Below, piece after piece: positions 21,097 through 38,084 of a stretch of DNA of 64,000 nt. The translations under genes were made by a program, and so were the position numbers. The notes below the pieces were generated by a model, which saw only the letters and a program-made list of their open reading frames with translations, ran no database searches and was not told the DNA's origin. Each line of letters starts with the position of its first letter. Position 1 is the first letter of the stretch. This stretch comes from Armatimonadota bacterium. GTDB lineage: Bacteria > Sysuimicrobiota > Sysuimicrobiia > Sysuimicrobiales > Humicultoraceae. The stretch is from positions 1-64,000 of the forward strand of contig JAVHMA010000017.1 in NCBI GenBank assembly GCA_031081715.1, read 5' to 3'.

Positions 21097-22707
21097 CTAG
21101 GTCCCGGTCCTCGGTTCGCCGTTCCCCAACCGCATCGCCGCTAGCGCCTGTGTGTGGAACGGCAGCAGCTTCCCGCCCGCCGTCTCGACCGGCCGCCGCC
21201 GCACGACCTTGATCGTGCCGGCCCGCTGCCAGGCCTCGCTGAGACCGGTGTAGGGCTGGTCCCACAGCGCCTGCATGAACCGCTGGACGACGCGCTCCTC
21301 GTCTACCGGGCCGACCTCCGGGCTGATCAGCAGGTACAGCCGGGTGAGGTGATCGCCGTCCTCGGCCTCGAGGAGCTGGTAGTCCACGCTCGTGCCGCCG
21401 AAATCCCGGGGCAGCACCTCCTCCAGGACGCGCACGCAGTCGGTGCCGAGCACCGTGATGCCCTCGCCGGTGAGCTTGGTGAACGACCGCACGTAGGCGA
21501 GGTGATGATGCAGGCCGAGCGCGTCGAGGGGGCAGCCGCACCGCCGCGGTTCGAACCGGCCGAAGTCGTCGGACTCGGCGTTCAGCATGATCTTGGGCGC
21601 GTGGTCGAGCAGCGAGGTGAACATGTAGCAGTCCAGATGCCCGACGCCGGCGGCCGCCCGGCGGTTCAGGATGAGCGCGAAGCTGTCCGCCAGGAAGTGC
21701 ATGTCGTCCGGCGCGTCCGGCTCGCCGCACCCCACGCCGGCCGCGCCACCTTCCATAAAGATGTAGCGCGCGTGCACCTCGGCGCCCGAGCGGCGGATCT
21801 CCCCGGCCTTGCCGGGGGTGAGTGGCTCTGAGCCCACGAAGATGCGCACGCCCTCCAGGCTCACCCCGGATGCGCGAGCCAGGCCGGCCACCCGTACGCC
21901 GCAGCTCGGCGTGGTGATCAGGCCGACCTCGCCGTGGCGCCGGCGCGCGGTCAGCAGGCCGTCGAGCACCGGCTCCGGCTCCGTCAGTGGCGTAAACTCG
22001 GGCTCCGGCAGCCTCAACCCGTGCAGCCGGCCGGCGAACCGGGCCAAGGGGATCAGCATCCGCCGGCGCAGCGACACCGTGGGCCGCGCGGGATCGGAGA
22101 GCGCGAACCACCGGATCGGCGGCCGACCGATGTGCGAGAGCCCCAGCCACAGGAAGGTGCCGGACCCCGCGGGAAAGCCGGGCAGCCAGGTGATGAGCGG
22201 GCTCTGCGTGGCACCTACCGCGTCGAGCATCAGCCCGAAGCAGATCGCGCGGTTCTCGGCGAGCGAGTTGAGAGCGACGCTGATCGGCGACCCGCGGCTT
22301 CGGCTTGCCCCGGTCGTCACCTTGAGCTCGCCCAGGCGGAACGGGTTGTCGAAGTCGGCCTCCGTGAAGTGGAACGTCCGGCTGCCGCGCACAGCAGGCC
22401 GCCGTCCCTTGAACTCTTCGAAGGCGACGTAGACACCCTGATCGCGCAGACGCGTCAGGGCACCCTCCAGGCCCTCCTGCCGAACCAGGCGCTTGACGTC
22501 GCCGTACTCGCATCCCGCGTGTCGCAGCAGCTTCAGGTACGGGCTTTCCGGATAGCGGTAGACGTACCGCTCGATCTGCCGCAGGAAGCGCTCCTCGCGC
22601 GCAGCGAGGCGGTCCCGGATAATCTGCCGGCACTGTTCGATGGTCAGGCGGCTACCGAAGAAGCGGTTGAGACTCGCCAGCAGCCGCGGGTACCCAAAGA
22701 CGTCCAA
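21097..22707 (-). CDS. CapK/PaaK-like adenylate-forming ligase homologue
   Basis: The 536-residue protein resembles the CapK/phenylacetate-CoA ligase branch of the ANL superfamily. ITTPSCGVRVAGLAR and IFVGSEPLTPGKAGEIR fit the core, YIFMEGGAAGVGC stands where the YGxTE adenylate motif is expected, and DMHFLADSFALI matches the 'HVxxDxxLxE' strand. The C-terminal subdomain includes YRVLEE-like elements (CVRVLEEVLPRDF). The only start that keeps the N-terminus is a TTG at 22707, so translation may be weak. CapK proteins occur in capsule loci with unclear roles; acyl activation for glycan decoration is a reasonable guess. It is the first gene of the minus-strand run. Confidence 0.7.
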   Translation of the reverse strand: MDVFGYPRLLASLNRFFGSRLTIEQCRQIIRDRLAAREERFLRQIERYVYRYPESPYLKLLRHAGCEYGDVKRLVRQEGLEGALTRLRDQGVYVAFEEFKGRRPAVRGSRTFHFTEADFDNPFRLGELKVTTGASRSRGSPISVALNSLAENRAICFGLMLDAVGATQSPLITWLPGFPAGSGTFLWLGLSHIGRPPIRWFALSDPARPTVSLRRRMLIPLARFAGRLHGLRLPEPEFTPLTEPEPVLDGLLTARRRHGEVGLITTPSCGVRVAGLARASGVSLEGVRIFVGSEPLTPGKAGEIRRSGAEVHARYIFMEGGAAGVGCGEPDAPDDMHFLADSFALILNRRAAAGVGHLDCYMFTSLLDHAPKIMLNAESDDFGRFEPRRCGCPLDALGLHHHLAYVRSFTKLTGEGITVLGTDCVRVLEEVLPRDFGGTSVDYQLLEAEDGDHLTRLYLLISPEVGPVDEERVVQRFMQALWDQPYTGLSEAWQRAGTIKVVRRRPVETAGGKLLPFHTQALAAMRLGNGEPRTGT

Positions 22708-23007
22708 ATCCTCTCGCCATCCTCTCTTGGTGCTACTCGTGCCTTCTGGGCCACCTGGGCCTGACTTGACCCAATTTCAACTCAATCTTGACGGACCTTG
22801 AATGGTACACCGCGGCGTGCGCCCGGTACGCTCGTGGCGGACGGTCCTCGTGACCGCACCGCTCGAGCACCAATCTGGAGTCCGTCGAGTCCCCGGGGAG
22901 CGGCCGGGGATCGGGCGACCGCAGCATGCTGTCGTGCGCGTCTAGGAGAACTGATCCTTGGGCACCTACCCGGGTGCAACCTAGGGCAACGAAAACGAGC
23001 CCCTCCG
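22708..23007. other. Divergent intergenic region
   Basis: This stretch between the TTG of the CapK-like gene and the riboswitch holds no credible gene. An open frame crosses it on the plus strand but lacks a ribosome site and protein-like composition. The part at 22760-22810 is AT-richer, with two TTGAC words (22766 and 22788), so promoters for both directions may lie here. I could not find a matching -10 box. Confidence 0.5.
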
Positions 23008-23088
23008 ACAAAGGCAAACTCGAAGCGATTCGAGGACGCAAAGCCACGGGTCTCGGACGCCACGCACCGAGATAGCCGGGTTGCCGAA
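23008..23088 (+). ncRNA. Cyclic di-GMP-I (GEMM) riboswitch
   Basis: The leader shows the conserved GEMM-I core. GGCAAA (23013-23018) is followed by a hairpin CTCGAA-GCGA-TTCGAG (23019-23034) with a GNRA tetraloop. Next is the invariant GGACGCAAAGCCACGGG (23034-23050), a second stem made of CTCGG (23052-23056) and CCGAG (23067-23071), then ATAGCCGGGTTGCCGA (23072-23087), which carries the conserved tetraloop-receptor and closing elements. The G just before CAAA, known in Vc2 to read the ligand, is kept, which favours c-di-GMP over cGAMP. It ends about 64 bases before the ATG of the G8-domain gene, placing that gene under second-messenger control. Confidence 0.92.
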
Positions 23089-23151
23089 GAGGCGGGCGCG
23101 CTTTCCGGTTTTCCACCGGGCGTCGGAGGGCTCCAACCATGGAGGCTTCCG
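23089..23151 (+). promoter_or_regulatory. Riboswitch expression platform and ribosome binding site
   Basis: The spacer between the aptamer and the start codon includes CCGG-TTTTCCA-CCGG, a short hairpin candidate, and ends in GGAGG seven bases before the ATG at 23152. No long T-run follows the hairpin, so control at translation or by a factor-dependent terminator is more likely than a simple intrinsic terminator. Whether c-di-GMP turns the gene on or off cannot be read from the sequence. Confidence 0.5.
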
Positions 23152-25644
23152 ATGCGTTTTCGGATGTGGCTCGGAGCGGCCGCCTGTCTCGTGCTGGCGT
23201 TCGGGACGCTCCCGTCCAGCACCAGCCTGGCGGAACCGGGGTCCGGCGGTCCCGCAAGCGGCCCCTCGCAACTCGCTCCGAGAGCGACCGCGACACGCAC
23301 GCCCACGCGCACACCAACCCGCACGCCGACCCCGACCTTCACCTTCCCCTTCCCGGGCCCGACCGCCACACGGACGCCGACGCCGGTCCCAACCACCACG
23401 CGCACGCCCACCCCGACACCGACACGCACCGCCACGCCCCGCGCCACCGCGACACCCGTCCCGACCGCGACGCCGGCGCCGCCGCCTCCACAGCCCGGGT
23501 CGTATCGCTGGAGCGACCCCGCGGCCTGGGCCAGCGGCCGCGTACCGGACCGGAACACCGACGCCGTCATCCCCGCCGGCCGGGTCGTCGAACTCGACGT
23601 GCAGAACGCCGAGGCCCGGACGCTGGTGGTCGAAGGTGCCCTGCGGGCCGCCCGAGGCACCGCGTCAACGCTGACCATGTACGGCAACCTGATCGTGCGC
23701 CGGCAGGGCGTACTCGACTACGGCCGGCCGAACGACCGCGTCACGGCGGCCGCGACGCTGCGCTTCGTGCTCGACGAGTCGCGCTACGTCGGCGGGGCCA
23801 CCATGACCCCGGTGAGCACCGACGTCGGGCTGTGGGCTCTGGACGATGCCCAGGTCTGGATTCACGGCGTCTACCGCGACACGTGGTCGCCGCTCGTGCA
23901 GACCGCGGCCGCGGGCGCCACCACCATCAGGGTCGACCCCAACTACGCACAGGGCTGGCGCGTGGGCGACGTGCTGCTGTTCACCCCCACCAACGCCCGG
24001 ACCGCGGCCGACGATCGGCAAGAGGACGAACTGCGCCGAATCGTCGAGGTGCAGGGCCCGGGCCAGTTCCGGCTGGACGCGGCGCTGCAGTACGCGCACA
24101 CGGTCACGCAGGTGACGTGGACCGATGCCTGGGGCGACACCTGGACCGAGGTGCTGGCCGGCAAGGTCGCCAACCTGACCAGCAACATCCGGTTCGCGGC
24201 CGCCGACCCCAACCACCGTCCGCACATCATGTTCATGAACCGCGCCAAGCACTACGTGGAGGACCTGGCGGTCGAGCACTTCAGCCCGGTGCCGCGAATC
24301 CCCCTGATGGGCCGGTACGCCTGGCACAACCACCTCCAGGATGACGGGTCGCGCGGCAGCTACCTGCGGCGCACGCGCCTGTTCAACGGCCCCGGCGACG
24401 GCCTCCATATCCACGAGTCGTGGGGCATCAACGTCGAGGACCTGGTGGTCTACAACCAGGCCCGGTCGCGCACCCGCAGCAGCGGCGCCGTGGCCGCGGC
24501 CCCGATCATGCTCGAGCGCACCGAGCCGAACCGCTACCCGACCCGCCAGCGCCACGCCGCCGACGACTGCTGGATCGACCGGCCGCTCGTCGTGAAATGG
24601 GGCATGCCGAACGACGTCTACTTCACCCACGGCATCTGGACGACGGGCTCGATGAACTGCTCGATCGTCGGTGCGGTGGCCGTGGGCGCCAACGGGTCGC
24701 AGCGCTCCTCGGGCATGCTCTGGGAGGAGGGCGGCGCCGGCGGCGACCAGGGGGAGGAGGCGGTCCACGTCTACCGGGCCGAGGCGTTCTCGAACTGGCG
24801 CATCGGCTTCCACTCGTGGCAGAACGCGACGCCGCCCGAGCGCATCGTGGACCTGCTCTCCTGGCGCAACGGCGACGGCGTCGCCTGGGGCGCCTACGGC
24901 ACGAACTACTGGGGCTACCAGGTGCGCGCGTTGGAGAACCTGGTGCAGCTCGCGCACTGGGCGGTAGGCTGGGGCATCACCGGGTTCCTGGCCGACGGGA
25001 TGGGCCGGGCGAACTCGGTGGGCATCGAGGTCCGGCGGTACGCGTTCGCCAGCAACGAAGACGGCGTCTACGAAGACGGCGTCGTGCGGAACGTCTCGGT
25101 GAACGTCCGGCACAGTTTGACCGAAGACCCCAGCAGCAACCGCTCCTGGGTGCAGTTCGTCCGCGTCGCCTGGGACGCGGCGCGTGGCATCTGGTTCGAC
25201 GGCCGCGGCGTCGCCCCGGACGGCAGCCGGCTCCGCTTCCGGCACCAGCGCAACCTGTCCCGCGCGGCCAACTTCACGCTCTACCGCATCGGCGACCCCA
25301 ACGCGCCAGCGGCCGCCGTGCTCGACTCCCAGTACAACGCGCTCCGCGTGGACAACGACACCGCCGGGACGCGGCCCCAGCCGCCCCGGGTGCGCCTGAG
25401 CGCGCCCGCGGACGACGTGGTGGCCAACGGTCGCGTACGGCTGACCGTGGACTCCAATGCCTCGCACGTGGACTTCTACCTGGCGCATTGGTTCCTCGAG
25501 CGCATCCCGGTCTCCAACGGCCAGGCGACGCTCGAGTTCGACGTCTCCACGCACCCGTATCGCCGCGCCTACTTCTACGCGGTCGCCACCGGGGCGAACG
25601 GCGCGAGCGCGGCCAGCCGCGTGATCCGCGTCCGGAGGTGGTAG
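23152..25644 (+). CDS. Secreted G8-domain protein with Thr/Pro-rich linker and beta-helix-like region
   Basis: From the ATG at 23152 (GGAGG upstream) the protein has 830 residues. It begins with a signal peptide (MRFRMWLGAAACLVLAFG, cleavage near SLAEP). Residues 45-115 are a Thr/Pro/Arg-rich linker of TRTPTRTPT type. Residues 117-240 look like a G8 domain: YRWSDPAAWASGRVPDRNTD, VIPAGRVVELDV, TLVVEGALR, the pattern also found in human CEMIP and TMEM2. Then follow about 400 residues of short strands rich in Gly, Asn and Trp, likely a right-handed beta helix. The last 90 residues look Ig-like. G8 proteins are extracellular; some act on hyaluronan, others are adhesins. The substrate here is unknown. 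The riboswitch directly upstream implies c-di-GMP control, as for biofilm matrix proteins. Confidence 0.85.
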   Translation: MRFRMWLGAAACLVLAFGTLPSSTSLAEPGSGGPASGPSQLAPRATATRTPTRTPTRTPTPTFTFPFPGPTATRTPTPVPTTTRTPTPTPTRTATPRATATPVPTATPAPPPPQPGSYRWSDPAAWASGRVPDRNTDAVIPAGRVVELDVQNAEARTLVVEGALRAARGTASTLTMYGNLIVRRQGVLDYGRPNDRVTAAATLRFVLDESRYVGGATMTPVSTDVGLWALDDAQVWIHGVYRDTWSPLVQTAAAGATTIRVDPNYAQGWRVGDVLLFTPTNARTAADDRQEDELRRIVEVQGPGQFRLDAALQYAHTVTQVTWTDAWGDTWTEVLAGKVANLTSNIRFAAADPNHRPHIMFMNRAKHYVEDLAVEHFSPVPRIPLMGRYAWHNHLQDDGSRGSYLRRTRLFNGPGDGLHIHESWGINVEDLVVYNQARSRTRSSGAVAAAPIMLERTEPNRYPTRQRHAADDCWIDRPLVVKWGMPNDVYFTHGIWTTGSMNCSIVGAVAVGANGSQRSSGMLWEEGGAGGDQGEEAVHVYRAEAFSNWRIGFHSWQNATPPERIVDLLSWRNGDGVAWGAYGTNYWGYQVRALENLVQLAHWAVGWGITGFLADGMGRANSVGIEVRRYAFASNEDGVYEDGVVRNVSVNVRHSLTEDPSSNRSWVQFVRVAWDAARGIWFDGRGVAPDGSRLRFRHQRNLSRAANFTLYRIGDPNAPAAAVLDSQYNALRVDNDTAGTRPQPPRVRLSAPADDVVANGRVRLTVDSNASHVDFYLAHWFLERIPVSNGQATLEFDVSTHPYRRAYFYAVATGANGASAASRVIRVRRW
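23284..23496 (+). repeat. Degenerate tandem repeat encoding Thr-Pro linker
   Basis: The coding repeat is built from short units of the ACGCCCACGCGC type that encode alternating Thr, Pro and Arg. It is imperfect and interrupted by FTFPFPGP. Such linkers separate extracellular domains and are often glycosylated. Repeat number may vary between strains. Confidence 0.75.
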
Positions 25645-25680: not shown

Positions 25681-26892
25681 GTGAGACACCTCGGACGACG
25701 GGGCATCGTGGCCCTGGCGGCCGCCGCGCTCGTGGCGGCCGCCATGCCATCCGCCACGCCCACCGGCGCCGCGCCGGCCGGCGCGAAGCGCATTGCCTTC
25801 CTCGTGGACAGCTGGTATCCCTGGTCGCACGCCGACGTGATCGGCACGCGGTTCCTCGCGGGGTACCGCGTGGGCGATCGCACGGTGGCCTCGCCGCTCG
25901 GCATCGCGAGCGTCTACACCGACGCGCCGCGCGCCACCGACCAGACGCGCGCGCTTGGGGCGCGTCACGGCTTCCGGATCGCGGGCTCGATCGCCGAGGC
26001 GCTGCTCGCCGACCCGGGCGCGGCCCGACCGCGGCTCGACGCCGACGGCGTGCTGGTCGCCACGCGCGAGGATCTGCCCGACAGCGGCCAACCCCAGAGC
26101 CCACGGCGCCGCGTCGAGGTCATGCGCGAGGTCTACCGGCTGCTCGACCTCACCGGCGCGCGCGTGCCGGTCTTCGTGGACAAGATGCTGGCCGCGAGCT
26201 GGCAGGACAGCCAGGCGATCACGAGCGAAGCCGCACGCCGCGGCATCCCGCTGATGGCCGGCTCGGTGCTCCCGTTCACCCCGCTGTCCCGCCCGCTCCA
26301 CAGCGCCGGCGTCCAGGTCGGCGTTGTCGTGGCCTCGACGCCCTACTGGGCGTTCGGGTTCCACGCCGCCGAGCTGCTCCAGGGGTTCATGGAGCAGCGC
26401 GCCGCCCGCGAGACCGGCGTGCGCGAGGTCCGCGAGGTCGGCGCCGGCTACTGGACGATGCCCGACCGCGAGGGCTGGGGTGGCCGCGTGATGGACGCGT
26501 TGCTGGCATCGCCGCGCACCGGCCGCGGCGGCGGGGGCCCGGTGCGCGGCGACGCGCGCGTCCTGCTCATCACCTACGCCGACGGCGCGCGCGGCGTGCT
26601 CGCGCTCGTGCCCGACCGGTTCGACGACAGCGAGTTCCTGCTCGGCGCGCAGTACGGCGACGGCACCGTCGCCACGAGCGGCCTGGTGCTCGGCGGTCAG
26701 CCTTACGACCACTTCGGGTACCTGGTCCATGCCCTGGTCCAGCTCTACACGACCGGGCGGAGCCCGGTGCCGGTCGAGCGCACGCTCCTGTCCACGGCGA
26801 TCGTCATCGCCGGTGTGCAGGCCGCCCGCTTTGGGCAGCCCGTGCGCGACCCCGCGCTGGCGGTCTCGTACACCCCACCCCGCGGCCCGTAG
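25681..26892 (+). CDS. Secreted protein of unknown function, planctomycete/acidobacteria-type family
   Basis: A GTG 36 bases after the G8 gene opens a 403-residue protein. It has a signal peptide (RRGIVALAAAALVAAAM). The mature part contains KRIAFLVDSWYPWSHADVIGTRFLAGY, RVPVFVDKMLAASWQDSQ, RGIPLMAGSVLPFTP and GFHAAELLQGFMEQRA. I recall a family of secreted proteins in Planctomycetes and Acidobacteria with the same segments (a 'SH..VI..RFL.GY' start and a 'VFNDKHLS'-like stretch), some labelled Gfo/Idh/MocA-like; that is memory, not a search. No catalytic site is clear. It may share the riboswitch-controlled transcript with the G8 gene. Confidence 0.7.
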   Translation: MRHLGRRGIVALAAAALVAAAMPSATPTGAAPAGAKRIAFLVDSWYPWSHADVIGTRFLAGYRVGDRTVASPLGIASVYTDAPRATDQTRALGARHGFRIAGSIAEALLADPGAARPRLDADGVLVATREDLPDSGQPQSPRRRVEVMREVYRLLDLTGARVPVFVDKMLAASWQDSQAITSEAARRGIPLMAGSVLPFTPLSRPLHSAGVQVGVVVASTPYWAFGFHAAELLQGFMEQRAARETGVREVREVGAGYWTMPDREGWGGRVMDALLASPRTGRGGGGPVRGDARVLLITYADGARGVLALVPDRFDDSEFLLGAQYGDGTVATSGLVLGGQPYDHFGYLVHALVQLYTTGRSPVPVERTLLSTAIVIAGVQAARFGQPVRDPALAVSYTPPRGP

Positions 26893-26896
26893 CGGG

Positions 26897-27808
26897 TCAT
26901 CGCCGGGCGTGGGCCCGGCCCTGACCCACAACATCCATCCCGACGTGCGCGCTGAACGCGGCGATGAGCCGGTGCGTGAAGGGGCCAGGCACGGGCGCCA
27001 GCGCCCGGCCGTTCAGGCGGCAGGCGGGCAGGATGCCCGGGCTCGTCGACGTCACGAACGCCTCTTCGCAGGCCTCGGTGTCGGCGAGCGTCACAGGCCG
27101 GCGCACGACGTCGAGGCCCTGCGCGGCCGCCAGCGCGATGACCACGCGGCGGGTGATGCCTTCGAGGGCCACGTCGTCCGGCGGGACCACGAGCTGCCCC
27201 CCGGCGACGAAGAACACGTTGGTGTACGCGGTTTCGGTCACATGCCCGTTCGTATCGAGGAAAAGCGGCAGCACCACCCGGTCGGGTCGCTTGACTTCGA
27301 CTTCGCCCAGCGCGAACAGCAGCCGGCTCTGCGTCTTGGCCCTCGGGTCGGGACCGCCCGCGGCCGGCAGCCGGACGCCCGGCGTCTGGAGTTCAATGCC
27401 CTCGTCGTAGAGCCGCGCGAACGCCTCGAACTGCACCATCCGGCAGGTGACCAGAACTGTCGGCGGTCCGGGCGGCGGACCTCCGAAGGGCGAGCCGCTC
27501 GGACCGCGGGTGATGCGATGCGTCAGGGTCACGTCGTCGTCGGGGCCCAGATGGGCGCGGTTGCGCTCCAGCACCTCCAGGGTCAGCGCCTCGAGCCGCT
27601 CCCTGGAGAGCCCCGGGTCGAGTCGCAGGTAGCCCAGAGTGGCGAACAGGCGGTCGAGGTGCCAGTCGAGGTGGAACGGGATGTGCCGGTAGGTGCGCGT
27701 GACCTCGTACGCGGCGTCGCCGAGCACGAAGCCGCGGTCCCCCGGCGAGATGCGGACCTCGTCCTCGGGGACGAACCAGCCGTTCCAGTAGCAGACCCAG
27801 GGCTGCAT
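26897..27808 (-). CDS. Class IV PLP-dependent aminotransferase (BCAT/D-amino-acid type)
   Basis: The 303-residue protein shows fold-type IV features: WNGWFVPEDEVRISPGDRGFVLGDAAYEVTR at the N-terminus, the Schiff-base lysine in DPRAKTQSRLL, ETAYTNVFFV, and the C-terminal EEAFVTSTSPGILP that binds the cofactor phosphate. It may be a branched-chain, D-alanine or aminodeoxychorismate-lyase-type enzyme; residue patterns alone do not decide. The start is the ATG at 27808. It is the last gene of the polysaccharide run and converges with the secreted-protein gene, with only four bases between stops. It may be a housekeeping gene rather than a glycan enzyme. Confidence 0.85.
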   Translation of the reverse strand: MQPWVCYWNGWFVPEDEVRISPGDRGFVLGDAAYEVTRTYRHIPFHLDWHLDRLFATLGYLRLDPGLSRERLEALTLEVLERNRAHLGPDDDVTLTHRITRGPSGSPFGGPPPGPPTVLVTCRMVQFEAFARLYDEGIELQTPGVRLPAAGGPDPRAKTQSRLLFALGEVEVKRPDRVVLPLFLDTNGHVTETAYTNVFFVAGGQLVVPPDDVALEGITRRVVIALAAAQGLDVVRRPVTLADTEACEEAFVTSTSPGILPACRLNGRALAPVPGPFTHRLIAAFSAHVGMDVVGQGRAHARR

Positions 27809-27828
27809 CGGTCGTTCGGGGCCTGTGG

Positions 27829-28425
27829 TCAACGAACTCCCGCGACGAAGGCGGCGATCTTGCCGTACTCGCGCGTCACCAGCCACCGGTCGAAGTCGCG
27901 CGTCCACCAGCGGTCGGCGTCGAAGAAGCTGCGCTCGGTCGCGGTCACGCGCACCTCCAGCCCCCAGCGCCGGAACTCCTCGCGGAAAATCATCGCGGCC
28001 CGGCGGGTGTGGTAGGGCGAGGTCACCAGGATCGCGCGCCGCAGCCGGTGACGGCGCATGAGCCGCGCGCTGTTGCGCGCGTTCCGCACGGTGCTCTCAG
28101 ACCGGTCGTCCACCAAGATCTGCCGCTCGGGCACGCCGGCGCGCAGCGCGACGCGCGCCATGGTCGCCGCGGCACCGTCGGCGCTGCCGCTCACGATGAG
28201 CCACCGGCCGTAGCCCGCGAGCACCAGCGCCGCGGCGGCACCCGCCCGCTCGCCGGTACCGTCGCCGCTGATCGCGATCACGGCGTCGGCGGGCTCCAGC
28301 GGGTCCCGGATCACCAGGAAGTCGCCGGCGGCCTGAAGGAGGGCGGGGGCGAAGACCGTCGCGGCGAGCGCCGCCCCGAGCGTCACCACCGCCAGCACCG
28401 CCACGGCGACTTGTCCCAGTCGCAT
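27829..28425 (-). CDS. YdcF/ElyC/SanA-like DUF218 membrane-anchored protein
   Basis: The 198-residue protein has one N-terminal membrane anchor (VAVAVLAVVTLGAALAATVFA) and then the DUF218 fold: ADAVIAISGDGTGERAGAAA, GYGRWLIVSGSADG, VDDRSESTVRNARNSARLM and AILVTSPYHTRRA. Family members such as ElyC and SanA act at the envelope, in peptidoglycan or lipid-carrier metabolism. It lies 18 bases downstream of the dehydratase gene in the polysaccharide run, which suits an envelope role. Confidence 0.85.
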   Translation of the reverse strand: MRLGQVAVAVLAVVTLGAALAATVFAPALLQAAGDFLVIRDPLEPADAVIAISGDGTGERAGAAAALVLAGYGRWLIVSGSADGAAATMARVALRAGVPERQILVDDRSESTVRNARNSARLMRRHRLRRAILVTSPYHTRRAAMIFREEFRRWGLEVRVTATERSFFDADRWWTRDFDRWLVTREYGKIAAFVAGVR

Positions 28426-28443
28426 CGGCCCCGGTCGCCCCGC

Positions 28444-30348
28444 CTACCGGGCCGCGAGGCCCGCGACCGCCTCGGGCGCCACCGGCCCGCCGGCGAGCCG
28501 GTCGAGCAGCGCCCGGATCCCTTCCGCGTCCATCACCCGCACGAGCCGGTCCAGCTCCTGCAGCGCGAGCCGCAGGGTCACCTCGTCGGCGGCCGGCCCC
28601 CCGGACCGCACCTCAAGGATGCGCTCGAAGACCGTGGGCACGACGCGCTCGTCGGGCAGGGCGAGCTCCTCCTCCATCTTCTCGCCCGCCCGCACGCCGG
28701 TGAACACGATCGGAATGTCCTTGTCGGGCTCCAGCCCGGACAGCCGGATGAGCTCGTGCGCCAGGTCCACGATCCGCACGGGCTCGCCCATGTCGAGTAG
28801 GTAGACGCTGCCGGGTGAGGTCATGAGCGGGGTCTGCAGCACCAGCAGCACGGCCTCGGCGATGCTCATAAAGTACCGGGTCATGTCGGGGTGCGTGATC
28901 GTCACCGGCCCGCCCCGGCGGATCTGCTCCTGCAACACGGGGATGATGCTTCCCCGGCTGCCCAGGACGTTGCCGAAGCGAACCGCCAGGAACCGCGTGC
29001 GGCCGCGGCGGCCGAGCACCTCGCCCACGCGCTCGCCGACCCGCTTTGAGGCGCCCATCACGCTGGTGGGGTTGACCGCCTTGTCGGTCGAAATGAAGAC
29101 GAACGTCTCCACCCCGCCCCGCAGCGCGGCTTCGCCGACCGCCAGCGTGCCAAACACGTTGGTCTTGACCGCCTCCTCGACCTCGCGCTCCATGATGGGC
29201 ACGTGCTTGTACGCCGCCGCGTGGAACACCAGGTGCGGCCGGATCGTGCGGAACATCCACTCGACCTTGGGGGCGTCACGGATGTCCATGATCGCGGTAC
29301 GCAGCGGCACGTCGGGCCGCTCGCGGAACAGCTCCTGCTCCAGCTCGAACAGCCCCGACTCGTTGACGTCGGTGGCGACGACCTGCTCGACGCCGAACCG
29401 CGAGATCTGCCGGACGAGCTCCGCGCCGATCGAGCCCGCGGCCCCGGTCACCAGCACCCGTTTCCCGGCGAGATAGTGCCCGATGGCGTCGAAGGCGATC
29501 TTGATGGGCGGTCGGCCGAGCAGCTCGTCGGGGCTGACATCGCGCACGTCCTTGAGCGCCACCCGTCCGGCCATCCAGTCGGTCATGCTCGGCAAGATCT
29601 TGATGCGCTGCACGCCGGCCGCGCGTACGTCTTTGATGATGTCCCGGAGCTGGCGAGGCGGCGCCGACGGGATCGCGATGAGCACCTCGTCCACGGCGTG
29701 CTCCCGCACGACGCGCGGGAGAACATCGCGGCCGCCGAAGACGCGCAGCCCCCGGATGTAGGCGCCCTGCTTGGCGGGGTCGTCGTCGATGAACCCGACC
29801 GGACGGAACGGCGCGGCAGCCGACTCCTCCATCGTCTGGGCGATCCGCATCCCGGCGGCGCCCGCGCCGACCAGCAGCAGCCGGGTCGCATGCCGCCGTC
29901 GGCGGCGCGTCTGATAGGTCTCCCGCTGGATCAGCCACCCGCGCCGACCGGCGCGGAAGAGGGTGACCCCGCAGGTCGTCAGGACGTAGTCCATGAGCAG
30001 CACCGAGCGCGGGAACGTGGCCAGGATCTCCACCTGCCGGAAGATCAGGATGATGGTGGTGGTCGTGGCGAACGCCACGGTCGTGGCCTTCACCACGCTC
30101 AGGAAGTCGCCGAGCCCCACCGAGCGCCAGGTCAGATTGTAGAGTCGGAAGATGGCGTTCCAGGCGAGCTTGACCGGAATCAGGATGGCCAACAGCGCCG
30201 GGAGGGCGACCAGGTAGCGCTCGGGGATTGCCCCGTCGAACCGGATGAGGAACGCCCCCCACAGTGATCCCGTCCAGATCAGGAGGTCGCCGGCCAGGAA
30301 CACCGCGGCGCGCATCGCCGGCGTCGGCTTCAGGCTAGGCCTCCACAT
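28444..30348 (-). CDS. Membrane-bound nucleotide-sugar 4,6-dehydratase (CapD/WbpM/PglF type)
   Basis: The 634-residue protein has about four N-terminal membrane spans (residues 12-135). A first Rossmann-like domain has LLLVGAGAAGMRIA at 157-170. The SDR catalytic domain has VLVTGAAGSIGAEL at 298-311. The catalytic region reads TDKAVNPTSV at 421-430 then MGASK at 431-435, where Met replaces the usual Tyr of YxxxK, as is standard for the WbpM/PglF group. These enzymes make UDP-4-keto-6-deoxy-GlcNAc. The DegT aminotransferase gene overlaps its start by 14 bases, giving the usual dehydratase-aminotransferase pair for diamino or 4-amino sugars. Confidence 0.92.
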   Translation of the reverse strand: MWRPSLKPTPAMRAAVFLAGDLLIWTGSLWGAFLIRFDGAIPERYLVALPALLAILIPVKLAWNAIFRLYNLTWRSVGLGDFLSVVKATTVAFATTTTIILIFRQVEILATFPRSVLLMDYVLTTCGVTLFRAGRRGWLIQRETYQTRRRRRHATRLLLVGAGAAGMRIAQTMEESAAAPFRPVGFIDDDPAKQGAYIRGLRVFGGRDVLPRVVREHAVDEVLIAIPSAPPRQLRDIIKDVRAAGVQRIKILPSMTDWMAGRVALKDVRDVSPDELLGRPPIKIAFDAIGHYLAGKRVLVTGAAGSIGAELVRQISRFGVEQVVATDVNESGLFELEQELFRERPDVPLRTAIMDIRDAPKVEWMFRTIRPHLVFHAAAYKHVPIMEREVEEAVKTNVFGTLAVGEAALRGGVETFVFISTDKAVNPTSVMGASKRVGERVGEVLGRRGRTRFLAVRFGNVLGSRGSIIPVLQEQIRRGGPVTITHPDMTRYFMSIAEAVLLVLQTPLMTSPGSVYLLDMGEPVRIVDLAHELIRLSGLEPDKDIPIVFTGVRAGEKMEEELALPDERVVPTVFERILEVRSGGPAADEVTLRLALQELDRLVRVMDAEGIRALLDRLAGGPVAPEAVAGLAAR

Positions 30349-31528
30349 GGGCTGCGACTCCCTCCTTCACCGCCTCGGCCACCTCGCGGATCTGCTCCCG
30401 CGTCAGCGTGTTGAAGAACGGCAGCGCGATCGTGCGGCGCGCCGCGTCCTCGGTGACCGGAAAGTCCCCGGCCCCGTACCCCAGGCTCGCCAGGTGGGGC
30501 GAGAGGTGGACCGCGGGAAAGTACGGTTTCGCGGCGATGCCGCGCTGCGCCAGGTGGGCGATGACCGCGTCGCGGTCGATGCCCGGCGCCACCCGGATCA
30601 CGTAGACGAACCACGCGACCCGGGCCCACGGCGCAGCGGCCGGCGTCTGGACGCCGCGGATGCCGGCCAGCGCCTCGTCGTACCAGCGCGCGACCTGCGC
30701 GCGTCGCCCCAGGATCTCGGCCGCGCGCCGGAGCTGGGCCACGCCCAGCGCGGCCGAGAGCTCGTCGAGCCGGTAGTTGAACCCGAGGGCCTCGTGCTCA
30801 AGCCAGTCCGCGCCCGGCCGCCGCCCCTGGTTGCGGGCCATCCGGCAGTAGGCCGCGACCGCATCGTCCTGGGTGACGACCATGCCGCCCTCGCCGGTCG
30901 TCATCTGCTTGTTGGGATAGAACGCGTACACGGCCGCATCGGCCAGCAGGGCCTCGCTCAGCCAGCGCCCCTCGGCCTCGGAGCGGTACTCCGAGCCGAA
31001 GGCCTCGCAGGTGTCGTGGACAATACGTAACCCGTGCGCGCGCGCCAGCGCGGCGATCCCGTCCATCTCCAGCGGGTGGCCGAAGACCGAGACCGGCAGC
31101 AGCCCGACCAGAGGCGCGCCGGAGGTCCGGTGCACGAGGCGACCCCCGTGCCGCACGTAGTCTCGCGCGATCACGGCCTCGATGGTCTGCGGCGTCAGGT
31201 TGAGCGTAGCCGGGTCGATGTCGGCGTAGACCGGCACGGCGCGCTCGAACAGCAGGACGTTCGTCGTCGCCACGAAGGTGAACGGAGTGGTGATGACGTG
31301 CTGGCCGGGCTCGATGCCGCACGCGCGGACGGCCAGGTGCAACCCGCAGGTGCCGTTCGCCACGGCGACCGCGTGCCGCACGCCCAGGAACGCCGCGAAC
31401 CGCTCCTCGAACTCGCGGACCTTCGGCCCCATGCTCAACCATGGCGTGCGCAGCACCCCGGTGACCTCCTCGATCTCCGCCTCGGAGATGTCGGGCCGGG
31501 AGAGCGGGATGCGGGTCAGCGTGCTCAT
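30335..31528 (-). CDS. DegT/DnrJ/EryC1/StrS sugar aminotransferase
   Basis: The 397-residue protein starts at an ATG seven bases after GGAGG. Family marks are PLSRPDISEAEIEEV, the ANGTCGLHLA loop at 57-66, HDTCEAFGSEY (aspartate at 172), and the PLP lysine K207 in FYPNKQMTTGEGG. These enzymes transfer an amino group from glutamate to a keto sugar nucleotide. It is placed just upstream of the 4,6-dehydratase, so a UDP-4-amino-4,6-dideoxy sugar is the expected product. The formyltransferase and GNAT genes of the cluster could then modify the amine. Confidence 0.9.
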   Translation of the reverse strand: MSTLTRIPLSRPDISEAEIEEVTGVLRTPWLSMGPKVREFEERFAAFLGVRHAVAVANGTCGLHLAVRACGIEPGQHVITTPFTFVATTNVLLFERAVPVYADIDPATLNLTPQTIEAVIARDYVRHGGRLVHRTSGAPLVGLLPVSVFGHPLEMDGIAALARAHGLRIVHDTCEAFGSEYRSEAEGRWLSEALLADAAVYAFYPNKQMTTGEGGMVVTQDDAVAAYCRMARNQGRRPGADWLEHEALGFNYRLDELSAALGVAQLRRAAEILGRRAQVARWYDEALAGIRGVQTPAAAPWARVAWFVYVIRVAPGIDRDAVIAHLAQRGIAAKPYFPAVHLSPHLASLGYGAGDFPVTEDAARRTIALPFFNTLTREQIREVAEAVKEGVAAHVEA

Positions 31529-31545
31529 ACGGTCGCCTCCGGTGG

Positions 31546-32730
31546 TCAGTCCGCGGGCTGCGCCGTTCGCAGCGCCATCAGGGTGGCGCCGCGGAGCGGC
31601 GGCAGCGGATGCAGGGTGAACGCACGCCAGGCGTGCCGGGCGGCGTCGCGCCAGCGCCGCTTGCGCGCGAACAACAGAGCCAGCACGGCGTGCAGCGTGC
31701 TCCATGCCGCGCGCGCGTTGACGCGTACACTGCCGGTGGGGTCCTCCAGCAGCGCGCGCACCAGGTCCTGGGCTTCCGCCGCCAGACCGTCCAGGTCGTG
31801 CAGGATGCGCTCGCGGCTGCGCAGCCCCGACGGCAGCAGCCGGCCGACCACCGTCAGATAGGTCTGCGGCCGATACGCCGCGGCGGGCCACACCGCGAAC
31901 CCCTCGCGCAGCCTGGCGACCGCGGTCTGCCGGTCGCCGCGGCGCCACGAGCCCATGGCCGCGCGGTGGAGCACGCCGAAGTGGGCCGCGGGTGCCAGCC
32001 GCCGGCACTCCGGCGGGAGCGCCATGGTCATGAACGCCTTGTCCAGCGCCCGCCGGTCCCAGTACAGCGCCTTGGCGGGGTCGGCGCTCAGGCTGTGGGT
32101 GTGCACACGCCGGTGGACGAGCACCCGCGGCAGGCAGCGGAACCGCACGCCCGCGACGAGCATCCGCAGGACCATGTCCCAGTCCTCGGACTGCCGCAGC
32201 GCCTCGTCGAAGCGCCCCACGCGCTCGAAGACCGTGCGGCGCACCGCAGCGAGCGAGAAGAGCACCGAGTTGCCCCCAAGCAAGATGCGCCGCAGCGTGA
32301 CCGCCTCCGGCGCCGTCCGCATCGCATCGTCCAGCACGGCGCCGTCCTGGTCCACGTACTGTGCCCACGCGTAGACGACGCCCGCGTCCGGGTCGCCCGT
32401 GAAGACCGCCGCCTGTGCCTCGAGCAACTCGGGCATCAGGAGGTCGTCGGCGTCGAGGAAAACGACGATCTCCCCCGTGCTGTGGTCCAACCCGGTGTTG
32501 CGCGCCGCCGCCAGCCCGCCGTTGGGCCGGCGCACGTAGCGCACGCGCGACCCGTAGCGCCGGACCGCGACCGCGGTGCCGTCGGTGGAACCGTCGTCAA
32601 CGACCACGACCTCGTAGTGCCCGTAGGTCTGCCGGAGCACGCTCTCGATCGCCGCGCCCACGTAGGCCTCGACGTTGTACGCGGGAATGACCACGCTGAT
32701 CAGCGGGCGCCGGCTCGTCGCCCCATCCAT
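31546..32730 (-). CDS. Family 2 glycosyltransferase
   Basis: The ATG at 32730, with GAGGGAG upstream, gives 394 residues; a longer frame upstream lacks a ribosome site. The GT-A domain shows ISVVIPAYNVEAYVG, VVVDDGSTDGT, RNTGLDHSTGEIVVFLDADD (metal-binding DAD) and QSEDWDMVLRML (acceptor base). The C-terminal 150 residues form Arg/Ala/Leu-rich helices that resemble TPR-like tails. It should add one sugar to the lipid-linked repeat unit. The gene lies between the sugar transferase and the aminotransferase. Confidence 0.88.
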   Translation of the reverse strand: MDGATSRRPLISVVIPAYNVEAYVGAAIESVLRQTYGHYEVVVVDDGSTDGTAVAVRRYGSRVRYVRRPNGGLAAARNTGLDHSTGEIVVFLDADDLLMPELLEAQAAVFTGDPDAGVVYAWAQYVDQDGAVLDDAMRTAPEAVTLRRILLGGNSVLFSLAAVRRTVFERVGRFDEALRQSEDWDMVLRMLVAGVRFRCLPRVLVHRRVHTHSLSADPAKALYWDRRALDKAFMTMALPPECRRLAPAAHFGVLHRAAMGSWRRGDRQTAVARLREGFAVWPAAAYRPQTYLTVVGRLLPSGLRSRERILHDLDGLAAEAQDLVRALLEDPTGSVRVNARAAWSTLHAVLALLFARKRRWRDAARHAWRAFTLHPLPPLRGATLMALRTAQPAD

Positions 32731-32752
32731 CGTGACGTCTCCCTCTACGCGC

Positions 32753-33439
32753 TCATGCCTGCCCGCCCCGAACCGCCGGATGGGCCGGCGGAATCCCGGC
32801 ACCCCCACCGTCCCAATCGGGCACGAGCCGCCGCAGCGCGAACCGCCGGACCGCGGCGGAGAACGGCGCCAGCGGCGTCAGCGCGGCGATCATCAGGTCG
32901 CTCAGCCAGGTGCGGCGGCGCGCGTACGCGAGTTCGAGGGCCATCTTCCGCGGCAGCACGTCCTCGAAGTACGCGCGCTGCGGATCGGCGGCGGCGACGA
33001 GCAGCCGCTCCTCGTCCGCGAACGCGAACGCGCTGATCCCGGTCAGGCCGGGGGCGACCCGGTAGACCTGTTCCGCGACTTGCCTGGGCACGGCCTCGAT
33101 CTCGTTCGGCGTGAGCGGCCGGGGCCCGACGAAGGCCATCTCGCCGCGCACGATGTTCACCAGTTGCGGCAGCTCGTCGAGTTTGAGCAGCCGCAGCGTT
33201 CTGCCGAGCGACGTGACCCGCGGGTCATGGTCCACCGTGACCGTGGACCCGTGGTGCGCGCCGTCCACCATCGTCTGGAACTTGAACACGACGAACGGCT
33301 CCAGCCCGCGCCCGAGCCGCACCTGGCGGAACAGGACGTGTCCCGTGGCCAGCCAGTCGGCCACCGCGAGCATGATGAGCAGCGGCGCGGTCACGACCAG
33401 TGCCGCGGCTGCCAGCGCGCGGACAGCGAGTCCCCTCAC
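32753..33439 (-). CDS. Initiating sugar transferase (WcaJ/ExoY/PglC family, phosphoglycosyltransferase)
   Basis: A GTG at 33439 overlaps the stop of the ATP-grasp gene (GTGA) and gives 228 residues. The N-terminal hydrophobic helix (ALAAAALVVTAPLLIML) is the re-entrant anchor of the monotopic family. Then come FRQVRLGRGLEPFVVFKFQTM, the catalytic-type LKLDELPQLVNIVRGEMAFVGPRP and VAPGLTGISAF. These enzymes move a phosphosugar onto undecaprenyl phosphate and so start each repeat unit. The position near the end of the long operon is unusual but seen in other loci. Confidence 0.92.
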   Translation of the reverse strand: MRGLAVRALAAAALVVTAPLLIMLAVADWLATGHVLFRQVRLGRGLEPFVVFKFQTMVDGAHHGSTVTVDHDPRVTSLGRTLRLLKLDELPQLVNIVRGEMAFVGPRPLTPNEIEAVPRQVAEQVYRVAPGLTGISAFAFADEERLLVAAADPQRAYFEDVLPRKMALELAYARRRTWLSDLMIAALTPLAPFSAAVRRFALRRLVPDWDGGGAGIPPAHPAVRGGQA

Positions 33440-34641
33440 GACGGCCACACGTCCCGAACCGGCACGCCGGAGGGACCCCTCCGGTGCGCGCCGCCGGCCG
33501 CCCGGCCGCGAACGCCGCGGAGGCCGCGCACCAGCAGCGGCCGCGGGTCGTCCGCGGCGAACCAGGCCAGCTCCCGCACGCCGCGCAGCGAGGCGGTCCA
33601 CGCCAGCACGCCGATGCGGCGATCGCGCCGGACGAGCGCGGTCGCGTCTTCCTCGAGCATCCAGCGCCGGCCCTCGAGCGGCTCGACCGAGGGGATCGCC
33701 TGCCCGGTGGCGTCGAGATAGGCCACGCGGGCGACGTCCAGCCCCCGGCGATCGACGAACAGCCGGAACGCCGCGCCCAGGCGGGGGTTCACGTCGAGGA
33801 TCTTGTAGCGGCCGTCGCGCGCGTCGTAGCGCAGGTCGACGTCTACCATGCCGCGGTAGCCGAGCCCCCGGAGGAAGGCGACGACCATCGCCTCGACCTC
33901 GTCATTGCGCGCGCATACCGCCAGCGACGCCACGCCGGCGCCCGGGGGGTACTGTCGCAGCTTCTGCCCGACGAACGCCGCCCGGCAGGCGGACTGCGAG
34001 TCGAAGTAGCCGTCGAACATCCACGAGGCCTCGTCGCCGCCGGCGACGTACTCCTGGAGCATCAGGTTGCCCAGCGCGAGGAGGCGCGCGCCCTCGGCGT
34101 CCGCCAGGAGCGCGTCGGCGCTCGTGGCGACCGCCTTCCAGCTCACCCCTGGCATCCGCGGGTCGGCCTCCTTCGCGACAATAGATCCATCCACCTCACG
34201 CGCGAACCGGCGCACGCCGTCGGCGTCCGAGGGGAACGCGGTGCGTGGCGCCGGCAGACCGGCCGCGGCGAGGAGCTGCTGCAGCCGGCGTTTGTCCACC
34301 AGCGCGCGCACCAGCTCGAGCGGCTGCGCGGCGAACAGGAAGTCCGCGGCCAGCGCCCCGGCGTGAGCGGCGGTGAACAGCGCGGCCGCGTCGGTCGTCG
34401 GCAGCAGCACCGCTCGCCGGCCGATGCGCGCCGCGAGCACGCGCATGAACCCGAGCGTTTCCTCGGCGGGGGCGGCCATGTCCCACACCGCGGTCCCGCG
34501 CCAGTATCGTGACGCGAGCCCGGGCGCATCCCGGCGCGAGTGCACGCCCCACGCGGCCACGCCCAGACGCCCCAGGCTGCGGGCCGCGCCCAGCCCGCCG
34601 TAGCCCGCCCCGAGCACCACGACCGGTGTCTCGGTGTTCAC
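33436..34641 (-). CDS. ATP-grasp domain carboxylate-amine ligase
   Basis: The 401-residue protein has an N-terminal Rossmann-like part (VVVLGAGYGGLGAARSLGRLG) and an ATP-grasp domain with SIVAKEADPR, LMLQEYVAGGDEASWMFDGY and the metal-binding YKILDVNPRLGAAFRLF. Such enzymes join a carboxylate to an amine using ATP. In polysaccharide loci they may add amino acids to sugars; carbamoyl-phosphate-synthase-like and D-Ala-ligase-like relatives exist. The start overlaps the GNAT gene stop (ATGA). The last 40 residues are Arg/Gly-rich and probably flexible. Confidence 0.8.
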   Translation of the reverse strand: MNTETPVVVLGAGYGGLGAARSLGRLGVAAWGVHSRRDAPGLASRYWRGTAVWDMAAPAEETLGFMRVLAARIGRRAVLLPTTDAAALFTAAHAGALAADFLFAAQPLELVRALVDKRRLQQLLAAAGLPAPRTAFPSDADGVRRFAREVDGSIVAKEADPRMPGVSWKAVATSADALLADAEGARLLALGNLMLQEYVAGGDEASWMFDGYFDSQSACRAAFVGQKLRQYPPGAGVASLAVCARNDEVEAMVVAFLRGLGYRGMVDVDLRYDARDGRYKILDVNPRLGAAFRLFVDRRGLDVARVAYLDATGQAIPSVEPLEGRRWMLEEDATALVRRDRRIGVLAWTASLRGVRELAWFAADDPRPLLVRGLRGVRGRAAGGAHRRGPSGVPVRDVWPS

Positions 34642-35273
34642 CGCGGCTGGCTCGCGCTCGCGGCCCAGGTCCGCCGCGGGCCGGGGGTCATCACGTAGAT
34701 CGCCGCCACCTCACCCGGGTGAATCTCGGCTTCCGCGCGCAGGGCGAACCCGGCGCGCTCGTAGAGGCGGCGCGCGGCGAGGTTCTCGCTGCCGGCGGTC
34801 ACGCGCACGGCCGCGACCGCGCGCGCCGCGAACTCCTCCAGCACGGCCGCCACCAGGCCGGAGGCGACCCCGCCGCCGCGGGCCTCCGGGCTCACCGCGA
34901 TAGACACCAGCTCGGCCGGCGGCAGCGCGGCCGAGGCCGCGTAGCGAGTGGTCTCAAGCAGCCGGCGCCAGCGCGCGGCTCGCAGCCCGGCGGCGACCGC
35001 GCGCACGGCCAGGCCGAGGTGCGCGCGCAGGAACTCGCGGTAGAACCGCCGCCAGTGGACCACGCCGCTCGCGAACCCCACCACGCGCCCGTCGCGCTCG
35101 GCCACGAACGCGAAGCCCAGCGGCGATCTGACGAGCGCGGCGTAGAACGCGGCCACGAACTCATCGCCCAGTCGGCTGAGCAGCCCCCACGGGATCTGCT
35201 CCCGATGCAGCGCCGCGATCACCGGGGCGTCAGACGGGCCGGCTCGTCGAATGCGCGCCGATGGTGACTCCAC
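34638..35273 (-). CDS. GNAT family N-acetyltransferase
   Basis: The 211-residue protein has the GNAT core. LVSIAVSPEARGGGVASGLVAAVLEEFA contains the acetyl-CoA pyrophosphate loop (R-x-x-G-x-G/A form), and TAGSENLAARRLYERAGF is the usual C-terminal segment. It acetylates an amine; an amino sugar made by the DegT aminotransferase is the likely target given the neighbours. The ATG overlaps the upstream glycosyltransferase gene by 44 bases, unusually long, so a later start is possible. Confidence 0.8.
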   Translation of the reverse strand: MESPSARIRRAGPSDAPVIAALHREQIPWGLLSRLGDEFVAAFYAALVRSPLGFAFVAERDGRVVGFASGVVHWRRFYREFLRAHLGLAVRAVAAGLRAARWRRLLETTRYAASAALPPAELVSIAVSPEARGGGVASGLVAAVLEEFAARAVAAVRVTAGSENLAARRLYERAGFALRAEAEIHPGEVAAIYVMTPGPRRTWAASASQPR

Positions 35274-36417
35274 GCTTCTCCTCGAGCAGACGGCGGTAGA
35301 CGTCGAGCGTCGTCGCGATCACACGGCGCTCGTCGAACTCCTGCTCCGCGCGCCGGCGACTCTCCGCGCCCAGCACACGGCGAAGCGCCGGGTCGGAAAC
35401 CAGCCGGCGGATCCGGTCGAGCAGCGGCTCGACCTGCCGCAGCGGTACGAGGAAGCCGTTGCGACCCTCGGCGACGACCTCGCGGCACCCCCGGATGTCG
35501 CTGAGCACGAGCGGGCGCCCCATGGCCGCGGCCTCGACCGCGGCGCGCGGGAACCCTTCACGATACGACGGCAGCACGAAGACGTCCATCGCCGCGTAGA
35601 GCTCGGGCATGTCGGTCCGCATGCCGAGGAAGCGCACCACGCCACGCGCCTCCAGGTCGTGGGTCACCTCGACGGGCACCGCGTCGCCCTTGCCGGGCTC
35701 GTGCGGACCGACAGCCAGGCACACCACCGGCGGGTGATCCCGCCTCAAGGCCTCGGCCGCGGCGAAAAACTCCCGATAGCCCTTCTCCCACACCAGCCGG
35801 CCCACCATGCCGACCACGACCGCGCCGGGGTCGATCCCCAGCGCGGCGCGCGCGGCCCTCGCGTCCACCCGCTCCGGGTCGAAGGCCACCAGGTCCACCC
35901 CGTTGCCGAGGTACGCTGAACGCTGCGGGCTGACCACCCCCGCGCGACGCAGGGTCTCGAGATCCTCGCGGCTCTGGCTGAACTCGAAGTCACCCCAGCG
36001 CGCGCCGAGCCTCTCGATGGTCAGGAACAGGCGACGCCGCAGCCCGCCCCGCTCGACGCCGTACAGTCCGTGGTAGGTGTTCACCACGATGGGCACGCCC
36101 GAAAGGCGCGCGGCGATCCGCCCCAGAATGCGCGCCTTGGGCGTGTGCGTGTGCACGATCTGCGGCCGGTGCGCGCGCAGCGCCCGCACCAGCCCGGCGA
36201 ACGCCCGCGCGTCGCCGGCCGGCGCCCACCGCCGCGCCAGCCCCTCGACCGGGACGTGGGTCAGGCCCTCGGCGACGAGCTCGGAGACCCAGGGGCCGGG
36301 CGCGCTGATCCCTATCACCTCGAAGCCCGCGTCGCGGAACGCGCGCAACTGGTCGCGCAGCAGGAACCGCAGGCTGAGGTCCACGGTCGCGATATGCGCG
36401 AGCCTAGGCACCGTCAC
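35230..36417 (-). CDS. Family 4 glycosyltransferase (GT-B fold)
   Basis: The GTG at 36417 overlaps the stop of the formyltransferase (GTGA) and gives 395 residues. The N-terminal acceptor domain has LRDQLRAFRDAGFEVIGISAPGP and IVHTHTPKARILGRIAARLSG. The donor domain has VVVGMVGRLVWEKGYREFFAAAE and the GT4 signature YREGFPRAAVEAAAMGRPLV (the E-x7-E motif). It resembles CapM/PglA-type transferases. The open frame extends upstream only as a shadow of the formyltransferase. Confidence 0.9.
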   Translation of the reverse strand: MTVPRLAHIATVDLSLRFLLRDQLRAFRDAGFEVIGISAPGPWVSELVAEGLTHVPVEGLARRWAPAGDARAFAGLVRALRAHRPQIVHTHTPKARILGRIAARLSGVPIVVNTYHGLYGVERGGLRRRLFLTIERLGARWGDFEFSQSREDLETLRRAGVVSPQRSAYLGNGVDLVAFDPERVDARAARAALGIDPGAVVVGMVGRLVWEKGYREFFAAAEALRRDHPPVVCLAVGPHEPGKGDAVPVEVTHDLEARGVVRFLGMRTDMPELYAAMDVFVLPSYREGFPRAAVEAAAMGRPLVLSDIRGCREVVAEGRNGFLVPLRQVEPLLDRIRRLVSDPALRRVLGAESRRRAEQEFDERRVIATTLDVYRRLLEEKRGVTIGAHSTSRPV

Positions 36418-37241
36418 GATCGGCGGTCCTCGGCGTAGGCCACACCGGAGGGCCAGAGGGCGGGCGCACTGCCAGCCAGCGCTGGCGCGCGTCGTCCCCG
36501 GACTCTTCGCAGCGCGAACCGCCCGGCGTCGCGCAAGGTCGGCCAGCCGTAGTAGGCGCCCGCGGTGTCCTGCGCGGCCGGGCGCGGCGCCGGCAGCGCA
36601 CCCTCGCGCTCCACGTGGCGCACGAGCCAGGCCAGCAGCCGCCCCCCTTGCTGCTTCTTGGCCACCAGCGCGTCGAGCAGACCGCGGCCCGCCAGGCGCA
36701 CCGCGCCCTGTGCCAGCACCGGCCCGGCGTCCACCTCGGGCGCCATCACGTGCACCGACGCGTAGCCCCACTCCTCGCCGTGGACCGCCTCCCAGAAGGT
36801 CCCGAACAGGCCGCGGTAGGCCGGGAGCCGGCCGTTGTGGACGTTCACGGCGCCGATAGCCGGCAGCCGCAACACGTGCGGCTTCAGGATCTCGGGGAGC
36901 CCGGCGGAGACAAGCAGGTCGGGCGCCGCGCGCTCCAGGGCCGCCAGCCCCTCGCCGCGGTTAAGCGTTGCCACGCGGTGGATGGCGCTCGCGCCAGCCA
37001 GCACGCGCTCCGGTGCGCCCGCGAGCGCCGAGGCGGTCCGGCGCGCCAGCCGCACCGAGCGGAGGCTGTCGGCCACGCCGAAGATCAGCAGCCCCTCGAC
37101 GGCGCGTCGCCACGCCGGCCGCACCCGCCGGGGCCGCACGAGGAAGACGGCCGCGGGCGCCGGCCCGCCGGCGGTGGCGTACGCGCTCCAGAACACGGCC
37201 GCCAGCGGATCGTCGGTGGTCGTGGCTACCACGAGCCGCAT
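36414..37241 (-). CDS. Formyltransferase family protein (methionyl-tRNA/sugar formyltransferase-like)
   Basis: The ATG at 37241 follows GGAGGTCGC and gives 275 residues. The formyltransferase centre is visible: INVH-type AVNVHNGRLPAYRG with its Asn and His, and the DxG segment PEVDAGPVLAQ with the catalytic Asp. N-terminal DLLVSAGLPEILKPHVL matches the family. It lacks the tRNA-binding C-terminal domain of Fmt, so a small amine is the likely substrate. With the dehydratase and DegT genes in the same run, N-formylation of a 4-amino sugar (as in VioF/QdtF-type pathways) is a good guess. Confidence 0.85.
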   Translation of the reverse strand: MRLVVATTTDDPLAAVFWSAYATAGGPAPAAVFLVRPRRVRPAWRRAVEGLLIFGVADSLRSVRLARRTASALAGAPERVLAGASAIHRVATLNRGEGLAALERAAPDLLVSAGLPEILKPHVLRLPAIGAVNVHNGRLPAYRGLFGTFWEAVHGEEWGYASVHVMAPEVDAGPVLAQGAVRLAGRGLLDALVAKKQQGGRLLAWLVRHVEREGALPAPRPAAQDTAGAYYGWPTLRDAGRFALRRVRGRRAPALAGSAPALWPSGVAYAEDRRS

Positions 37242-38053: not shown

Positions 38054-38084
38054 CACAGAGTGCGGGCACACCAGCGGTCACCGA

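Follow-up and report, generated by a model that had tools for sequence, protein, structure and literature searches.

A c-di-GMP-I riboswitch predicted to control a secreted G8-domain protein beside an exopolysaccharide gene run in Candidatus Sysuimicrobiota

Background

Riboswitches of the c-di-GMP-I class (GEMM-I; Rfam RF01051) occupy 5′ leaders, including those of genes for secreted proteins. One such gene, gbpA of Vibrio cholerae, encodes a protein that binds polysaccharide. Its GEMM-I leader is Vc1 (PMC4744006). What GEMM-I riboswitches control is in most cases a gene for matrix, pili or motility (PMC7266159). The structural reference of the class is Vc2, also of V. cholerae, in whose numbering G20, A47 and C92 recognise the ligand (PMC3764141; PMC4744006), another base at position 20 being the mark of cGAMP variants (PMC9481103).

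Here we compare with these systems a locus in a 64-kb window, the whole stretch of DNA analysed, from a genome of the uncultured, soil-abundant phylum Ca. Sysuimicrobiota (CSP1-3); the paper describing the phylum makes no mention of riboswitches or c-di-GMP. Our overall explanation of the locus, to which we assign a probability of roughly 0.75, is that translation of a secreted G8/CEMIP-like protein is under the control of a c-di-GMP-I riboswitch of canonical type.

Results and discussion

Identification of the leader RNA

A clan-resolved scan with all of Rfam returned a single RNA match in the window, to RF03167 (c-di-GMP-I-GGC), at 23004-23089 (+) with 70.8 bits and E = 9.3e-15. In a whole-genome scan the same site matched RF01051 over the full length of the model (1-87) with 70.9 bits and E = 7.2e-14, a genome-wide value that places it far from chance; the covariance model thereby supports the GEMM-I assignment made in the initial annotation. 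The aptamer exceeds the gathering cut-offs of both families (35 bits for RF01051, 59 bits for RF03167), and by RF01051 it is the top scorer among the 11 GEMM-I copies of the genome. Its main features are:

23003..23089 (+): c-di-GMP-I (GEMM-I) riboswitch aptamer; RF01051 70.9 bits, RF03167 70.8 bits
23002..23092 (+): P1 stem, CCUC 23002-23005 with GAGG 23089-23092, in the predicted fold of 23002-23092
23019..23034 (+): P2 hairpin CUCGAA-GCGA-UUCGAG with a GNRA tetraloop, from the sequence and the Rfam alignment
23013 (+): equivalent of G20 (Vc2 numbering), which reads one guanine of c-di-GMP; A in cGAMP-type switches
23040 (+): equivalent of A47 (Vc2 numbering and RF03167 alignment); the RF03167 consensus has G there
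23084 (+): equivalent of C92 (Vc2 numbering), which pairs with the other guanine of c-di-GMP

All the core elements claimed at the outset could be located, namely the CTCGAA-GCGA-TTCGAG hairpin (23019-23034), GGACGCAAAGCCACGGG from 23034 and AGCCGGGTTGCCGA ending at 23087. The ligand-reading G had been placed directly before CAAA, a base that is in fact G21 in Vc2 numbering (PMC3764141); G20 itself lies one base earlier and is present, so that the pocket stands with a corrected position. With Vc2 the leader shares the whole aptamer architecture, the GNRA-capped P2 and the G20/A47/C92 pocket, a triple that is identical in 77 of the 79 aptamers of the order.

The near-equality of the two scores bears on what the RNA senses. 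The clan-resolved scan named RF03167, whose gathering score is exceeded, and on this reading the RNA would be a GGC variant responding to another ligand. However, its score ties with that of RF01051, and the RF03167 consensus is GCGAAG, with G at position 47, where the leader RNA has GCAAAG; the 'GGC' of the family name presumably denotes bases 20/47/92. With A47 present this identity was dropped, and we consider it improbable. Sensing of 3′,3′-cGAMP, as in the GEMM-Ib type, seems marginally more remote still. The class does contain cGAMP members, in which the characteristic change is G20A, and one aptamer of the order (L091) has A at position 20, but the leader retains G20 at 23013, exactly where cGAMP-type switches differ, and cGAMP specificity was dropped for that reason. 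Since the pocket bases G20, A47 and C92 are canonical, the tie is settled: as judged from its sequence, the leader RNA is a canonical member of the c-di-GMP-I class, which is the best name for it, and within this known class it is unremarkable. Going by these bases, its ligand is very probably c-di-GMP.

The target gene and its surroundings

The features downstream and around the aptamer are:

21097..22707 (-): divergent neighbour, 536 aa, no Pfam match; homologue comparison finds relatives near both CSP1-3 G8 genes
23141..23145 (+): Shine-Dalgarno (SD) GGAGG
23152..25644 (+): target gene, 830 aa (ORF, Pfam), with a signal-peptide-like N-terminus, a Thr/Pro-rich linker, a G8 domain (residues 126-248) and a weak CEMIP beta-helix match
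25708..26892 (+): 394-aa gene of no known family, probably co-transcribed with the target, which it follows in the same direction; a 63% identical homologue lies near the CSP1-3 G8 gene
26897..57455 (-): gene run for exopolysaccharide, which converges with the target and includes glycosyltransferases, a Wzz-like protein, a flippase and a nucleotide-sugar dehydrogenase; its first gene encodes an aminotransferase of class IV

The target starts at ATG 23152, preceded by the SD, and these two elements lie 52-63 nt 3′ of the aptamer. The frame is, however, uninterrupted from a TTG at 22798 to 25644, and the aptamer might accordingly be a decayed or chance element, or simply a part of a longer coding frame, that regulates nothing. 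This is hardly credible for a sequence that gives the best score of all copies in the genome, keeps every pocket base intact and recurs in the same arrangement in CSP1-3; a start at 23152 also agrees with the SD and with the signal-peptide-like N-terminus, and the coding-only explanation was dropped. As the leader anatomy reads, a riboswitch of the c-di-GMP class very probably controls the G8 gene.

The 830-residue G8-domain target initially proposed is a real ORF. Its G8 domain (PF10162) scores 36.4 bits against a cut-off of 22.9 (E = 5.5e-9; residues 126-248, profile 2-123 of 124), whereas the CEMIP beta-helix model PF24606 (cut-off 27.3 bits) gives a sub-threshold 18.4 bits. The likeness to animal CEMIP (KIAA1199/HYBID) and TMEM2, a G8 domain and then a weak beta-helix match, is remote; only G8 passes its Pfam cut-off in the bacterial protein, and nothing found in this bacterium points to hyaluronan. 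The activity of the CEMIP/TMEM2 family is itself disputed (PMC10474455, PMC10276149, PMC10206443). No solved relative of the G8 protein turned up when the PDB was searched by sequence and by profile, NCBIfam had no name for it or its two neighbours, and an AlphaFold model from a three-sequence alignment reached a pLDDT of 30. The protein is probably secreted, to judge from its N-terminus, and its anatomy and context suggest that it acts on extracellular polysaccharide; that its substrate is matrix polysaccharide has, in our estimate, even odds.

The initial annotation had set the target next to a 30-kb polysaccharide operon. A run of about that length is indeed present (26.9-57.5 kb), but the riboswitch lies outside it and drives a gene on the opposite strand that converges on the operon's end. 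Near the start of the run, 53469-53999 (-) encodes what appears by eye to be a NusG/RfaH-like protein, possibly an operon-specific antiterminator.

Relative to RF01051, with Vc2 as its structural reference, the G8 leader differs in three respects: 1) the target family, which is G8/CEMIP-like; 2) the phylum, Ca. Sysuimicrobiota; and 3) the apparently translational platform, with SD and AUG buried. Vc1 is similarly the leader of a secreted protein, but of an unrelated family and in a different phylum. The G8 class had been described earlier as unfamiliar among riboswitch targets, and no paper in the literature searched contained both 'G8 domain' and 'riboswitch'; within that literature this target class appears to be unreported. 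G8/CEMIP-like secreted proteins would thus be an added target class in the c-di-GMP-I regulon, and GEMM-I control makes the function of the bacterial G8 protein easier to guess.

Expression platform and direction of control

Three further elements of the leader, predicted by folding and complementarity, are needed here:

22997..23009 (+): proposed first half of an antisequestor, the P1 5′ strand region, with 23122-23133 as alternative partner (12 bp, one bulged C)
23122..23133 (+): second half of the antisequestor, the 5′ arm of the SD hairpin, GUCGGAGGGCUC
23120..23155 (+): sequestering hairpin that encloses the SD and the start codon, predicted fold -27.9 kcal/mol

The predicted stability of the hairpin (-27.9 kcal/mol) compares with -14.2 +/- 2.8 for shuffles (z = -4.97), 0 of 200 shuffles being as stable, and is reached by 3 of 181 start regions, a count that includes itself-like values. 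The P1 5′ strand CCCUCCGAC (23001-23009) can pair with GUCGGAGGG (23122-23130) in the 5′ arm of the hairpin, with three more pairs past the bulge. In constrained folds of a transcript ending at 23165 the state with P1 and the hairpin (-74.1 kcal/mol) and the antisequestor state (-72.8) are nearly isoenergetic, whereas for ends at 23131-23147 the antisequestor is the lowest-energy state by about 10-12 kcal/mol. Near-isoenergetic states with an early advantage for the antisequestor are what a switch decided by kinetics would show: the ligand has to lock P1 before transcription reaches 23131. In the predicted P1 state the SD and the AUG are both paired; in the antisequestor state two of the three AUG bases are open, and the SD is partly paired in many folds, its access varying by fold, so that the ON state is not cleanly explained. 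For longer transcripts the unconstrained fold (-91.7 kcal/mol) resembles neither state.

A scan for intrinsic terminators found none in the three G8/CEMIP-like leaders (the window, CSP1-3 and genome G004), as against 30 of the 79 leaders of the set, and for the CSP1-3 orthologue a comparable hairpin is predicted over the SD and a GTG start. Control is likely to be translational rather than transcriptional. The proposed course of events is as follows. At high c-di-GMP the aptamer would close P1 and so occupy the P1 5′ strand, leaving the hairpin at 23120-23155 to form and bury the SD and AUG (OFF). At low c-di-GMP the P1 5′ strand would pair with 23122-23133 once this is transcribed, and the antisequestor pairing would break both P1 and the SD hairpin, exposing the start (ON). 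In this low-c-di-GMP state, in which cells leave or disperse, the G8 protein would work on polysaccharide outside the cell, probably on the matrix that the cell itself makes with the neighbouring genes. OFF control would make remodelling or dispersal of the matrix the coherent story.

The anatomy of the leader leans towards OFF rather than ON with c-di-GMP. We rate OFF no higher because the complementarity between the P1 5′ strand and downstream sequence goes only modestly beyond chance: against shuffles, p = 0.027, 0.10 and 0.26 for the three G8/CEMIP-like leaders, and p <= 0.05 for 10 of the 79 leaders of the set where 4 are expected. The same riboswitch might act with the opposite sign, c-di-GMP turning the G8 gene ON and the product being a component of the matrix, or an enzyme that modifies it, produced along with the exopolysaccharide. 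Several sister leaders in the genome (C34, C25) have an intrinsic terminator whose stem uses the P1 3′ strand, which predicts ON, and secreted proteins made alongside matrix are common c-di-GMP targets. Yet such a terminator is absent from the G8 leader, whose SD hairpin is compatible with P1 and incompatible with the antisequestor, and we hold ON to be the less probable sign, though one with an appreciable chance.

Recurrence of the G8 association in relatives

The G8 domain is rare, a search with the Pfam family finding it in 2 of 43 genomes. Outside the host genome the G8 protein has its closest relative (61% identity) in Candidatus Sysuimicrobiota bacterium CSP1-3, at L027 5476-8133 (a locus also represented by L061), and this relative too has a GEMM-I element upstream (53.5-54.1 bits). 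The homologue of the 25708 gene (63% identity) lies beside it, and its 18-kb contig contains no full exopolysaccharide operon. A divergent CEMIP-like protein of genome G004 (27% identity, E = 1e-22), with a CEMIP beta-helix exactly at the Pfam cut-off (27.3 bits), also follows a GEMM-I leader; the aptamer there has C at position 20, making its ligand response uncertain. Polysaccharide glycosyltransferases lie upstream of the G004 protein, which converges with their cluster as in the window, and one of these enzymes shares 51% identity with a glycosyltransferase of the window's operon. Adjacency to an exopolysaccharide operon is therefore seen in two of the three cases (the window and G004, CSP1-3 being without).

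CSP1-3 encodes a second G8 protein (L082; PF24606 21.4 bits), which runs off the contig end. Its leader is a c-di-AMP riboswitch of the ydaO/yuaA type (RF00379; 74.9 bits, cut-off 38) at 1952-2095 (-) of G007:C81, likewise placed before a G8 protein but with another aptamer, another signal and a terminator-like hairpin after it. Elsewhere in the order, the c-di-AMP leaders that were examined mostly precede genes of trehalose-synthesis type, as read by eye, and L082 stands out from them. With the window, the CSP1-3 orthologue and L082 taken together, a riboswitch for a cyclic dinucleotide precedes every G8 gene found in the order, three in all. A wider reading is that two unrelated riboswitch classes, c-di-GMP-I and c-di-AMP, were recruited in Ca. 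Sysuimicrobiota to the same secreted G8/CEMIP-like family, as a matrix-cutting enzyme that is released by direct RNA sensing and that c-di-GMP shuts off during production of the neighbouring exopolysaccharide; we put this forward tentatively, and on balance doubt it.

GEMM-I riboswitches and c-di-GMP signalling across the order

RF01051 matches occur in all 43 genomes of the order (the host genome together with those listed under the same family or order) and, weakly, in 1 of 18 more distant genomes; an uncultured, soil-abundant phylum thus uses GEMM-I in every genome of the order searched. Alongside its 11 GEMM-I copies the host genome encodes eight GGDEF domains, and the targets of the sister riboswitches include two HD-GYP-type genes, type IV pilins and a type IV pilus ATPase with an MshEN domain, which together indicate that c-di-GMP signalling is live in this genome. 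Across the order, other GEMM-I targets are glycoside-hydrolase-like proteins, a beta-helix protein with carbohydrate-binding modules, pilin-like proteins, type IV pilus ATPases, HD-GYP-type proteins and sigma factors.

Several of these copies deserve separate mention. Sigma factors of the SigB/SigF/SigG type are the commonest predicted GEMM-I target (15 of 68 target proteins in the order, from several families; for example L018 12919-13728, L087, L092, L100 and L103), and control of a sigma factor by a riboswitch would extend the indirect reach of c-di-GMP to many more genes. The aptamer with A at position 20 (L091 210-300; G010:C11) is in a sigma-factor leader, and its same-genus relatives keep G. 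Three tandem GEMM-I aptamers precede a glycosyl-hydrolase-like gene in L097 (201-726; G013:C4). In the host genome, one copy (G000:C49:26086-26163 (-), L023) is followed by a terminator-like hairpin and by 3.7 kb in which no same-direction gene is called; read-through would be antisense to SCO1-like and cupredoxin-like genes, making this a candidate antisense-acting riboswitch. Finally, a type II/IV secretion-type ATPase with an MshEN domain lies behind a GEMM-I leader at G000:C41:34857-37278 (L019). MshEN is a c-di-GMP-binding domain, and this ATPase may be controlled by one signal at both the RNA and the protein level.
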